From NCBI GenBank assembly GCA_022448945.1, contig JAKVCV010000012.1, positions 48,897 through 112,896 of the forward strand: a DNA stretch of 64,000 nt, in the 5' to 3' direction. Positions within the stretch are counted from its first letter, which is position 1. Every line of letters begins with the position of its first letter. This stretch comes from Saprospiraceae bacterium (GTDB taxonomy: Bacteria; Bacteroidota; Bacteroidia; Chitinophagales; Saprospiraceae). The position numbers and the translations under genes are program-made. Positions 60,218 to 64,000 of this stretch are shown in pieces. The notes below the pieces were generated by a model. That model did not search any database. It was not told the DNA's origin and saw only the letters and a program-made list of their open reading frames with translations.

Positions 60218-60365
60218 TGGTTTTTTTCGATAAAAAGAAGGATTAATTTAGATATTTTATATTTTTTTGTACATTGACTATTATTATAGCATACCTTAAA
60301 AAAATTTAACAAATACCTTTAAATAGCTATATTCTAACCTTTTGGCACTAGATCAAACAAATCTT

Positions 60366-60824
60366 ATGCGTTTATCTATTTTGATTTTTTTATGCTTTTT
60401 TTTAATGTTTCCTTCCTCTAAAGGTCAACAAATAGATGATAGCTTGTTGGTTGCTTCTTTGTCTAGGACGACCTGCTACGGGAATTGTCCATATTATGAA
60501 ATAAAAGTATACGCTAATGGAATAGCAACTTATCTGGGCAAAAAAAACGTATTATTAATTGGATTTTATAAAGCAACGATTAATGAAAATATAATTGAGC
60601 AGATTCTTAATAAAGCATTGCAAATAAAGTACATGAGTTTAAATAATAAATATCCATTAAAGGGTATAGGTATAATTGACTTCCCTGTTTGTATAACCTC
60701 AATAAAAACAAAAAAGGGAAAGAAAAAAACGATATACAACAGAAACGATTCACCTCAAAAATTGATTGAATTTCAGAATTTTTTTGATAAATTGTTCGAG
60801 GAAACAGAATGGAAAAAAATCTGA
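60366..60824 (+). CDS. Small secreted protein with a DUF6438-type domain
   Basis: I choose the ATG at 60366, giving 152 residues and a good signal peptide (RLSILIFLCFFLMFPSSKG, cleavage near residue 20). The longer frame starts at TTG 60342 with no added motif. The domain shows the pattern of DUF6438: SRTTCYGNCPYYEIKVYANGIATYLGKK and later FPVCITSIKTKKGKKKTIY, in which CYGNCP is the core motif. Function is unknown; two cysteines may form a disulfide in the envelope. It is monocistronic, ahead of tRNA-Cys. Confidence 0.75.
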   Translation: MRLSILIFLCFFLMFPSSKGQQIDDSLLVASLSRTTCYGNCPYYEIKVYANGIATYLGKKNVLLIGFYKATINENIIEQILNKALQIKYMSLNNKYPLKGIGIIDFPVCITSIKTKKGKKKTIYNRNDSPQKLIEFQNFFDKLFEETEWKKI

Positions 60825-61035: not shown

Positions 61036-61106
61036 GGTCGGGTGGCCGAGCGGCTAGGCTGGGCTCTGCAAAAGCTCCTACAGCGGTTCGAATCCGCTTC
61101 CGACCT
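61036..61106 (+). tRNA. tRNA-Cys (anticodon GCA)
   Basis: The sequence folds into a cloverleaf. The acceptor arm GGTCGGG pairs with TCCGACC (one G-U), discriminator T. The D-arm is GGCCGAGCGGCTAGGC. The anticodon stem-loop GGGCT-CTGCAAA-AGCTC gives anticodon GCA. The T-arm is CAGCG-GTTCGAA-TCCGC-type with a normal TTCGAA loop. CCA is not encoded. A promoter and a terminator flank it, and it may mark the edge of a variable region downstream. Confidence 0.92.
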
Positions 61107-61565
61107 CTACTAAAAGTTCCATTAACAATTATGTTGTGGAACTTTTTTTGTTTTAGTAGTTGTTTGTTTTGTCTTTAGAAAGGCTTTAAGAACCAAATTG
61201 ACTACTTACTCCATTTAATGATTAGATGAACACTTTTTACTTTGGTTAAGGCCAATTAAAAAGCCTGTATGTACTTGTAGTTATCGAGCGTAAGCACCCT
61301 AATCTTTTCAAGCGTCATTTTTAAATAAAAATCAATGCTTCATACATTGATTTATTGTTCTTTATTAATTTTAATTGTAATAAAAATGAGACTATCCAAA
61401 AAATAACAATTATAATGTATCGGAAAATCAAAAAATTTAATGATAGACGGCTTTATTACTTGATTATTAATTTTTCGTAATTCAAAACATATAAATTTTT
61501 AATATTAAATAATAATATTAATTTTAAGAAAACGAATTGCTTATTCACTAAAAAAATAATACAAA
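61107..61565. other. Intergenic region between tRNA-Cys and the hypothetical coiled-coil gene
   Basis: This gap of 459 nt holds the tRNA terminator (61112-61146). A short patch at about 61256-61340 is less AT-rich than the rest and on the minus strand keeps a 27-codon open frame ending in a natural stop; it could be the 3' remnant of a lost gene. The final 200 nt before the next gene are very AT-rich. No promoter with both elements was found for the downstream gene. Confidence 0.4.
61112..61146 (+). terminator. Intrinsic terminator of tRNA-Cys
   Basis: AAAAGTTCCA and TGGAACTTTT pair perfectly over 10 bp with a 15-nt loop, followed by TTTG, 5 nt after the tRNA end. This is a standard Rho-independent terminator. 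Confidence 0.8.
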
Positions 61566-62285
61566 ATGAGTACTAAAAATGAAAACATTAAAAAAGAACT
61601 GGTACTTCTAGAAAATAAACTTAAACAATATCAAATAGCATTTAAAGAGGATGGAACAATTGATAAGAACGAACAGAAAAAACTGGATGAATTAAAAGAA
61701 ATTATTCATGAATGTAAAATAAAATTAAATAGTACTGAACCACAAGAAAATAGTCAAGCTGACATATCAAATGTTAATGCAGCTGAGATTCAAAGATTAA
61801 GAGAAGAATTAGTAAAACTTGCGGGAAGAAATGTCCCTGTTGGTGTAAATAGAACTTATAAACAATACATTGCATTAGGAGGAGATGAAGGTGAAATACA
61901 TAAATGCGCTGCTGAAGCAGCCAGGGTTACTGGAAATATGGCTGCTTTTTTAAAAAGAGCTAATGCCGCAAAAAAGAAAGGGGTTGATACAACAGGCCTA
62001 TTTGCAGAATTAGAATCTTACGTTAAAATAACTATAAGTTCTACAACTCAAATCCCGAAATCAAATAAAAAGAAAACATCAATTGGTGCACCAACACTAA
62101 ACATTAAAGTTGCACCCTTTCATCCTTGTCATAAAAAAGCAATAGAATTTGCTGATAAAAAACTGCAAGAAAAATGGTCATTCAGAGGATTTCTACCATT
62201 CGGAGAATACACACTTGAACATGAAGGGAGAAAAAAAGAATTTGAACTGAATAATCAATGTATACAAACTAAAATTGAAATTTGA
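61566..62285 (+). CDS. Hypothetical coiled-coil protein with a degenerate EF-hand-like loop
   Basis: The 239-residue protein has no signal peptide. The first 60 residues form a charged coiled coil in which FKEDGTIDKNEQKKLDEL (from about residue 26) copies the DG-x-I-x3-E half of an EF-hand but lacks acidic residues at loop positions 1 and 3, so calcium binding is doubtful. A helical middle region (about 78-155, AEIQRLREELVKLAGRN, then AAEAARVTGNMAAFLKRANAAKKKG) is followed by a beta-rich C-terminus (about 175-239). I do not recognise a family. It is 159 nt upstream of a cation channel gene and on the same strand, so it may belong to the same cluster. Confidence 0.65.
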   Translation: MSTKNENIKKELVLLENKLKQYQIAFKEDGTIDKNEQKKLDELKEIIHECKIKLNSTEPQENSQADISNVNAAEIQRLREELVKLAGRNVPVGVNRTYKQYIALGGDEGEIHKCAAEAARVTGNMAAFLKRANAAKKKGVDTTGLFAELESYVKITISSTTQIPKSNKKKTSIGAPTLNIKVAPFHPCHKKAIEFADKKLQEKWSFRGFLPFGEYTLEHEGRKKEFELNNQCIQTKIEI

Positions 62286-62444
62286 TATGATAATTTATAA
62301 TGTGTCTATCCTACTACCATTAAATTGAAAGAACATTTTTAAGAATTTTTAGTTTTTGTCACAACTCTTTTTTGTAATAATTATGTTAATTACTTATAAT
62401 TGTAATAGATTTAGTACTGAACAGAAAATTCATCAAATGAGATT

Positions 62445-63287
62445 ATGGGGAAAAACAGATCTAGATTCAGAGTACCTGCAAGAAAATTGATAGACAATAA
62501 ATGGTTTACAATTGCAATCATGCTTTTGATAATCATTAATGGATTGCTCATCGGTGTACAAACTTATGAAAATGTACCAGACTACATCCAAGTAATCCAA
62601 CTTTGTATTCTTTTTATTTTTTTTATTGAAATCATTATCAGATGGACAGGAAGAACTACCACTGCTGAATATCTTTCTGACAAATGGAATCTATTTGATG
62701 TTTTTATTGTAATCATTGGTGTCATTCCTGAAGTTGCTGAAATAGTCCTGGAAAGTGATTCTGAATCTAAAAACATTTTATCTACACTAAGGATACTTAG
62801 AGTAATTCAACTTACAAGGTCTATCAGAGCTATTGGTGAATTACAATTACTCATAGGTGTATTGGTTAAATCTATTCGTTCTCTTTCTTATATTGCAGTA
62901 CTTTTTTCACTGATTATGTATATCTATGCCATTATAGGTGTAACGTTGTTCAAAAATCGAGACTATGATAATTCTGAACATTTGAGAGTTACACTTTCAA
63001 ATCCTGACCCCTATGGAGATTTAGGAGAAGCATTCTTCACATTATTTCGAATTTTAACTGGAGAAGATTGGACAGATTTACGTTATAATTTATTACAGAA
63101 TGATTATATCAAGGGGAATGTACCTTCCTCTACGAATGCAACAGTTACTTTTTACCATGTGTCCTGGATGGTCATTGCTGCCTATTTACTAATTAACCTT
63201 GTAATTGGTGCAATTGTAAATAATTTTCAACTGGTTTTAGATGCTCAAAGAGAAGAAGAGGAAGCAAATGCTCTTAAGAAAGAATAA
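62445..63287 (+). CDS. Single-domain voltage-gated cation channel (BacNav-like ion transporter)
   Basis: The 280-residue protein has six transmembrane segments: S1 (about 19-40), S2 (48-68), S3 (80-102, WNLFDVFIVIIGVIPE), S4 (112-132), S5 (146-170) and S6 (about 235-262), with a re-entrant pore loop (190-215). S4 has the voltage-sensor spacing R116-R119-Q122-R125-R128. The filter reads TGEDWTD at 205-211. Relative to the NavAb filter TLESWSM, the serine and methionine positions carry Asp, as in the engineered calcium-selective CavAb. This suggests Ca2+ or mixed selectivity, an inference only. A tetramer is expected. The acidic tail (REEEEANALKKE) may be a coiled coil. It lies 79 nt upstream of a TerB-like gene on the same strand. 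Confidence 0.88.
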   Translation: MGKNRSRFRVPARKLIDNKWFTIAIMLLIIINGLLIGVQTYENVPDYIQVIQLCILFIFFIEIIIRWTGRTTTAEYLSDKWNLFDVFIVIIGVIPEVAEIVLESDSESKNILSTLRILRVIQLTRSIRAIGELQLLIGVLVKSIRSLSYIAVLFSLIMYIYAIIGVTLFKNRDYDNSEHLRVTLSNPDPYGDLGEAFFTLFRILTGEDWTDLRYNLLQNDYIKGNVPSSTNATVTFYHVSWMVIAAYLLINLVIGAIVNNFQLVLDAQREEEEANALKKE

Positions 63288-63366
63288 TACCTTTTTTAAT
63301 CTATTCCTAATTATTTAGAACAACTTCATTCTTAACTATCATCCCTATCGTAATATTAAATATAAC

Positions 63367-64000
63367 ATGGAACTTAGTTACATAAAGATTCAACCTTATT
63401 TACACAAATCAACACAAGAAGGCAATAGAATGATTTGCATTTTCAAATTTGAAAATAAAAAATTTGAATCTGAATCAACTATTACTAAAGGCAATGAAAT
63501 TGGATCTGATATTGGTTCAAAAATTGCTAAAAATGCTGGAATGAGTCAAATGCGTTCATTTCTAACAAGGCTTGTTAAAAAAAACATTGAAATAAAAAAT
63601 GATGTTACAATTAACTCCGATGAAGTTTTTACAGATAAAGAAAAAGAAGCTGCAATTGTTAATGCCTTTAAAGGCATCATGAATGAAATAATATATGATA
63701 GTAAAGAAAAAAAATGGCGTATTGCATCAGGAGTATCTGAATTTGAAAAAAGAATGAAAAAATTTCCTCTTGTTGAAATTTATGATAAAAAGATAATGGC
63801 TAGAATGCTGGTTGAAATGGCGAGAGCAGATCAAAGAATTGAAGAACAAGAAAGATTGTTTTTTGAGAGTTTCCTTACACCTGACACCGGGAAATTAGGT
63901 GATCTGATGCGGAGCCCTTATTTAACTTATTCTGATTGTGAAAAAGTAAATAAAAAAGCCAGAAACACCCTGTTTTTAGTTGTTGCAGCAGTTGCACTAA
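63367..64000 (+). CDS. TerB-like domain protein, N-terminal 211 residues (continues off the right edge)
   Basis: The open frame starts with ATG at 63367 and runs to the end of the window. After about 130 residues of mixed alpha/beta character comes ARMLVEMARADQRIEEQERLFFESFL (about 139-164), which resembles the TerB family core: a helix with an ARADGxIxxxE acidic turn and a following helix. TerB-like domains may bind metal at the acidic turn and occur in membrane-associated stress modules; they do not prove tellurite resistance. The residues at the window end, RNTLFLVVAAVAL, look like the beginning of a transmembrane helix. It starts 79 nt after the channel gene on the same strand. Confidence 0.65.
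   Translation, partial: MELSYIKIQPYLHKSTQEGNRMICIFKFENKKFESESTITKGNEIGSDIGSKIAKNAGMSQMRSFLTRLVKKNIEIKNDVTINSDEVFTDKEKEAAIVNAFKGIMNEIIYDSKEKKWRIASGVSEFEKRMKKFPLVEIYDKKIMARMLVEMARADQRIEEQERLFFESFLTPDTGKLGDLMRSPYLTYSDCEKVNKKARNTLFLVVAAVAL

Follow-up and report, generated by a model that had tools for sequence, protein, structure and literature searches.

Among the described systems closest to the locus presented here are two kinds. The first is the one-domain voltage-gated channel of prokaryotes, for which the available part of one study reports that negative filter charges can give prokaryotic Nav channels Ca2+ selectivity (PMC7041947), and the second is the contractile injection system (CIS), of which one example, a type VI secretion system of subtype iv (T6SSiv) that includes a trans-envelope complex, has been attributed by citation to Aureispira sp. 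CCB-QB1 (PMC11566945, in excerpt). Predation by this strain needs calcium, according to a title in the reference list of PMC8868019. Here we describe a 64,000-nucleotide (nt) stretch of a Saprospiraceae genome of the same genus (the window; contig C4 of a 4.35-Mb assembly in 73 contigs), in which a tRNA-Cys is followed on the plus strand by a gene with a recurrent N-terminal module (gene 1), a one-domain voltage-gated cation channel (gene 2) and a TerB-like gene (gene 3). Genes 2 and 3 are neighbours more often than chance predicts within the genus, gene 1 is not part of this arrangement, and the TerB-like family to which gene 3 belongs accompanies CIS at the genome level. Three things were observed: what the genes are, that genes 2 and 3 stay adjacent, and that family and CIS go together at the genome level. 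On this basis we propose with a probability of about 0.35 that genes 2 and 3 form a conserved two-gene unit of Aureispira, a voltage-gated channel with a soluble TerB protein of a CIS-accompanying family, that would act in CIS attack. To our knowledge, the roles of bacterial one-domain calcium-like channels and the function of the TerB domain are largely open.

The relationship between the channel and the TerB-like gene is most visible in gene order. The earlier note on this DNA had named separation of its three genes in related genomes as a refutation, and the channel and the TerB-like gene turned out to be adjacent and co-directional at seven of the eight Aureispira loci that carry the gene 2 channel type (the window genome, G676, G740, G756, L153, L154 and L155), with the TerB-like gene 3' of the channel and gaps of 26-294 nt. 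At the eighth locus, L157, the contig ends 285 nt past the channel; L156 and G740 represent one genome, which was counted a single time. Identity among the TerB-like proteins of the pairs ranges from 38 to 72%; the exception is G676 and G740, two near-identical assemblies in which these proteins are identical, so that at most six of the seven loci are independent. The sample of 396 genomes of the order includes four others of the window genus, and in G762 the single TerB-like gene is of the nSTAND type and the pair is apparently absent. The tRNA-Cys also stands 5' of the channel in G676, G740 and G756, at 248, 248 and 153 nt, against 1337 nt in the window genome; this spacing is too small to hold gene 1, which is therefore absent from these three loci, and the three-gene cluster of the earlier note shrinks to a channel/TerB-like pair. 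A calpain-family protease gene (84.6 bits, L144:17263-18300) lies about 6.5 kb 3' of the pair in G756.

Adjacency of this kind may reflect shared gene order only, with two unrelated genes kept 3' of tRNA-Cys in one genus. The flanking genes stand in the same order in the window genome, G676 and G756 too, so gene order is generally conserved among these three, as that explanation would have it. We nevertheless consider it very unlikely, because the pair stays whole in L154 and L155 despite a changed downstream neighbour (FeoB and a 953-residue protein, respectively), because a second channel type lies near a TerB-like gene in four further genomes, and because an Ion_trans gene is found within 3 kb at 8 of 22 strong TerB-like loci where 0.12 would be expected from channel density. 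These eight channel-bearing loci form two arrangements and are thus not eight independent events. Seen from the channel side, a TerB-like gene is present at 4/80 pattern-found channel loci, all four in Aureispira.

The second line of evidence comes from the distribution of the TerB-like family relative to Pvc16_N, a marker of extracellular contractile injection system (eCIS)-type machines. The family occurs in 6/198 genomes of the order, and all six are Pvc16_N-positive compared with 32/198 overall and 0/14 control genomes (Fisher's test over the 198 genomes, with no tree correction: p 1.2e-5 when genomes are counted, 8e-4 when genera are). When the sample of the order was extended to 396 genomes, all 18 with a strong match (E <1e-50, a cut chosen after the scores had been seen) were Pvc16_N-positive, and none of the four with a weak match (E 6e-7 or worse) was. 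The profile used, A1, was made from seven proteins out of six of the 18 strong-match genomes. A search of the phylum returned 16 matching genomes, of which ten with E values of 1e-5 to 1e-3 were left out of the Pvc16_N test. The TerB-like gene lies about 16-52 kb from Pvc16_N on the same contig in five of the 18 (G031, G044, G155, G122 and G692). In G122 it belongs to a row of genes that also holds Pvc16_N, sheath, gp19 tube and gp25; the 909-residue gene directly before it has no Pfam match. The CIS locus of the window genome itself is found on contig C19 and comprises Pvc16_N, a sheath C-terminal domain, three gp19-type tubes, a spike, CIS_tube, gp25 and baseplate J; the TerB-like genes of the genome are on C4 and C23, none within that locus. 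G740 has one Pvc16_N match, and its locus is therefore probably the reported T6SSiv system. The earlier note had connected the genes to a Ter-type stress module, and the relatives instead show a family that goes with contractile injection systems; no ter operon was recognised among the open reading frames (ORFs) around gene 3, which were read by eye with no scan using TerC, TerD or TerZ profiles.

Gene 3 (plus strand, from 63367 to the window end at 64000) has 211 of its 288 residues inside the window and 233 nt beyond it. Rightward extension of the contig, as the earlier note had advised, completed the ORF (L004:2864-3730) at 288 residues with its TerB match kept. The TerB-like identity given to it in that note holds by a narrow margin: the complete protein matches PF05099 at 24.6 bits against a Pfam cut-off of 24.4, with its best stretch over the 27 residues 145-171, and its paralogue and orthologues score 24.8-32.6 bits. 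A profile of seven gene 3 relatives matches 2OU3, described as a 'tellurite resistance protein of COG3793', at E 0.001. The predicted model of the L154 orthologue (predicted local distance difference test, pLDDT, 75.6) gave no Foldseek match at E <0.001, and its best row in a second structural look (2h5n, Z 6.2, root-mean-square deviation 6.6 over 121 aligned residues) was not significant. The suspected entry of the protein into the membrane at the window edge was not supported, as its highest 19-residue Kyte-Doolittle mean is 1.08, too low for a transmembrane segment, compared with 2.47 for the channel. These features predict gene 3 to be a soluble TerB-domain protein of 288 residues.

Gene 2 (280 residues, plus strand, 62445..63287) has a match to Ion_trans (PF00520) that scores 144.7 bits against a Pfam cut-off of 25, and its best matches in the PDB are Cav3, followed by Cav1 and Cav2. 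The predicted S4 voltage sensor (62781..62828, plus strand; STLRILRVIQLTRSIR) reads R-R-Q-R-R at every third residue, with arginine at four of the five positions, and a single selectivity filter, TGEDWTD (63057..63077, plus strand), is identical across six aligned channels. Together, the Ion_trans domain, the regularly spaced S4 arginines and the one pore filter bear out the earlier description of gene 2 as a one-domain voltage-gated cation channel. A canonical bacterial voltage-gated sodium channel (BacNav) was considered and rejected, as the filter is TGEDWTD and not TLESW. At the place aligned to this filter the second repeat of a Cav3 channel reads ILTQEDW. The calcium-channel-like filter of gene 2 makes a calcium link plausible. 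The PHROGs and PADLOC scans returned nothing for genes 2 and 3.

Channels of this type are not confined to the locus. A second TGEDWTD channel in the window genome (L005:8477-9496) is 70% identical to gene 2 and has a long poly-Asp stretch near its C-terminus; the 18 kb read around it held no TerB-like match. Relatives of the gene 2 channel (L168-L232), most of them with TGEDWTD, the filter by which they were searched for, come from records of gut Bacteroidales, Flavobacteriales, SAR324, Succinivibrionaceae, Methylococcales and Desulfococcaceae. The best open frame of the 80 pattern-found channel loci has TGEDWTD in 66 cases and lacks it in 14, a proportion that says nothing about the frequency of the filter because the filter was part of the pattern with which the loci were collected.

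The four further genomes with a channel near a TerB-like gene contain a different arrangement. TVGYGD is the K+ channel signature, and it is present in the channels of all four (G155, G692, G031 and G044). In G155 (L029/L041) a row of ThiF (E1), a YukD-like protein under its cut-off, UQ_con (E2), JAB, VWA-FHA and the channel is accompanied by TerB on the opposite strand, and the adjoining stretch contains eCIS_core and PAAR genes. The order is the same in G692 (L146), where 8 nt separate channel and TerB, and in G031 (L031/L043) and G044 (L032/L071) two genes lie between channel and TerB; the E1, YukD-like, E2 and PAAR genes of G031 were checked with profiles, and their G044 equivalents were read by eye from ORFs. 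In G752 (L151) TerB, E1, a ubiquitin-like protein (Ubl) and E2 stand in a row beside an nSTAND1 gene, with no channel in the stretch read. A further row, in the window genome itself (L027:256-7749), consists of an nSTAND1-WD40 NTPase, an outer-membrane barrel-like protein (profile-checked), a further secreted-looking protein and a TerB-like gene; by reading it is also present in G041 (L028:421-7050). We regard this row as a candidate envelope complex.

These neighbourhoods raise the alternative that the TerB-like family belongs to conflict systems that depend on nucleotides and on ubiquitin (nSTAND NTPase, E1-Ubl-E2-JAB) and are common among predatory, filamentous bacteria, with CIS and channels as fellow travellers in the same islands. 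Both the nSTAND1 rows of the window genome and G041 and the position of the TerB-like gene beside E1, Ubl and E2 in G155, G692, G752 and G031, and by ORF reading in G044, are in line with such a role. No nSTAND or ubiquitin-like genes were read around the Aureispira pair, however, and the islands of G155 and G031 carry PAAR, that of G155 also eCIS_core, so that CIS parts lie inside the islands themselves. We consider membership in conflict systems unlikely as the basis of the association.

The presence of a channel next to a gene of a family that goes with CIS suggests that ion entry and the injection machine are linked. In the two-gene unit that we favour, depolarisation would open a channel presumed to be a homotetramer, and Ca2+, or Na+, would enter through it. 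The TerB-like protein, located near the inner membrane face and possibly in contact with the channel, may then sense the ion or the channel state and could set the CIS, or its membrane attachment, to a ready state during prey attack. A bolder version, which we consider quite unlikely, holds that a voltage-gated calcium-type channel and a TerB-like adaptor would act together as a switch, triggered by ions, for arming or firing the Aureispira CIS, which would explain calcium-dependent predation, with the same wiring built from a K+-type channel and a ubiquitin-like cassette in other Saprospiraceae. Gene order ties the channel to TerB, and genome distribution links injection systems with the TerB-like family, within a group one of whose members is a predator that, according to the title of a paper, needs calcium for predation; an old calcium observation thereby becomes a two-gene hypothesis.

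Several points weigh against the proposed unit. The strong-match cut was made with the scores in view and the counts are uncorrected for phylogeny beyond genus. The TerB score of gene 3 is marginal, gaps of 235-294 nt at three pair loci are unlike a tight operon, the flanking genes also keep their order, and the sequence of the locus offers no promoter or co-transcription support for a channel-TerB operon. Permeation by Ca2+ is only a guess from charge, because in PMC7041947 (in excerpt) the Ca2+ selectivity of CavMr is attributed to the glycine that occupies position 4 of its filter, a position taken by Asp in gene 2, and a section heading there presents NavPp as Na+-permeable. The effects of Ca2+ on dead CCB-QB1 cells are explained by surface charge neutralisation in the available part of PMC8868019, which is a rival cause of the calcium need. 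In the window genome the pair is on C4 and the CIS locus on C19, not near each other; 26/32 CIS-positive genomes of the 198 are without the TerB-like family, which makes the family accessory and means that CIS do not need the TerB-like gene; and three genomes outside the order have a related protein at E 1e-41 to 1e-33 with Pvc16_N in 0/3. These last three points equally favour a general ion or envelope stress module, in which the channel would admit cations under depolarisation or osmotic load, the TerB-like protein would sense or buffer metal, and the CIS link would follow from the lifestyle of complex Saprospiraceae. Such a module would leave unexplained that all 18 strong-match genomes are CIS-positive and that five hold both genes within about 16-52 kb, and we consider it possible, if doubtful.

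Gene 1 (239 residues, plus strand, 61566..62285) has a different history. It was found only in its own genome among 198, a sample that does not include the genus relatives, and it appears to be a separate insertion, seen in no other of the genomes checked. Its first approximately 60 residues, a predicted helical and lineage-specific module spanning about residues 1-63, are present at 18 places in the genome. They almost always sit at the N-terminus of a protein or close to it and are followed by differing remainders. A canonical EF-hand has a 12-residue loop with acidic positions 1, 3, 5 and 12. The EF-hand-like loop that the earlier note had seen in DGTIDKNE (window position 61650) could not be upheld, as Ala and Lys occupy the first and third positions of its loop and no EF-hand is matched in Pfam at E up to 1. 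The DGTIDKNE region is nonetheless a conserved element of 17 aligned copies of the module in the genome. About 17 proteins of the genome carry the module, with its DGTIDxxEQ loop, at their head or within them; places with it include L091:1243-9968, L092:6309-9704, L093:7489-8955, L094:5977-7068, L023:6179-7573, L024:6712-7035, L025:119-3059 and L026:7284-7652. Two almost identical proteins with the module are encoded at the ends of contigs C13 and C22 (L025:119-1039 and L091:37-1173), and the assembly therefore probably broke at a repeat.

Ten module-bearing or neighbouring proteins were scanned and contained one calpain-family protease domain (66.4 bits), on a protein headed by a copy of the module, one LysM and one peptidoglycan-binding domain, and a gene two genes 3' of another module-bearing gene has an HNH match below the cut-off. 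The module thus looks like the leader of polymorphic or modular effectors, which we offer as a lead only. A role as a CIS leader was not supported, since the module does not track CIS across genomes: weak matches occur in 3/197 other genomes, none of them CIS-positive, and none was found at the loci fetched from genus relatives, with no wider search of those genomes. Viewed as possible eCIS cargo, gene 1 has no DUF4157/eCIS_core domain among its Pfam matches at E up to 1. The available part of PMC11297309 reports that eCIS N-terminal signals showed no conserved sequence. Insertion of gene 1 through the tRNA end found no support, with no exact match of 9-20 nt to the last 40 nt of the tRNA between 61108 and 62445 on the plus strand, and the G+C content of gene 1 (0.31) is close to that of the window (0.318). 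A weak integrase match (E 0.0069, PHROGs/PADLOC scans) was not trusted, and the structure predicted for gene 1 from its sequence alone was of low quality (pLDDT 51.6) and was not used.

Around these genes the layout described in the earlier note was recovered in full, with three plus-strand ORFs 3' of the tRNA-Cys (GCA; 61036..61107, plus strand, ARAGORN) and recomputed gaps of 159 nt between genes 1 and 2 and 79 nt between genes 2 and 3. Its observations are confirmed for the tRNA, the ORFs, the channel and the TerB match but not for the membrane entry of gene 3 and the EF-hand of gene 1; of its interpretation, the channel/TerB-like pairing remains, and the three-gene cluster and the classical Ter stress module do not. 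Further 5' lies a DUF6438 protein (60342..60824, plus strand, start codon uncertain; PF20033, 89.5 bits), a conserved upstream neighbour that also precedes the tRNA-Cys and channel-TerB pair in G676. TAnnTTTG is the Bacteroidota-type promoter motif, and it was not found in the three gaps on the plus strand. Sites of the sigma-70 type were rarer than in shuffles (14 compared with a mean of 20.2), the only site resembling a terminator is on the opposite strand, within gene 1, and RNA structure in the channel-TerB gap is unremarkable (z 0.70).

Compared with described systems, gene 2 is like CavMr and the ancestor-like BacNav branch (eLife 2020, PMC7041947, in excerpt) as far as sequence goes: it is a voltage-gated channel of prokaryotes with one domain, its filter exceeds the BacNav TLESW in acidity, and the seventh filter residue is acidic. 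It differs in the second filter residue, Gly, and in the fourth, Asp, where CavMr has the Gly credited with its Ca2+ selectivity. Gene 3 is like TerB-domain proteins (PF05099, 2OU3) in its Pfam match over the cut-off and its profile match to 2OU3, and unlike them in about 130 extra N-terminal residues and a marginal score. The G155 cassette resembles bacterial E1-E2-JAB ubiquitin-like cassettes, as its ThiF matches the PADLOC E1-E2 models and E1, Ubl, E2 and JAB stand in one row in both G155 and G692; it departs from them in being accompanied by a K+-type channel, VWA-FHA and a TerB-like gene, and the cassette is absent at the Aureispira pair locus.

Relative to eCIS and T6SSiv (AlgoCIS of Algoriphagus, PMC8894135; Aureispira T6SSiv in PMC11566945, both in excerpt), the window genome likewise has its CIS gene set at one locus, and the G122 TerB-like gene is in a row with sheath, tube and gp25. 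Unlike those loci, the pair of the window genome is on another contig than its CIS locus. The words TerB and ion channel are absent from the available part of the AlgoCIS paper (PMC8894135), TerB is absent from that of PMC11297309, and the eCIS survey PMC8213781 mentions neither TerB nor a channel. Our literature search by title and start of abstract, which left most subscription papers outside, found none on TerB with CIS or on TerB with an ion channel. Each part of the Aureispira pair and its relatives is of a known kind; what is new, within the reach of that search, is how the parts are combined and distributed.

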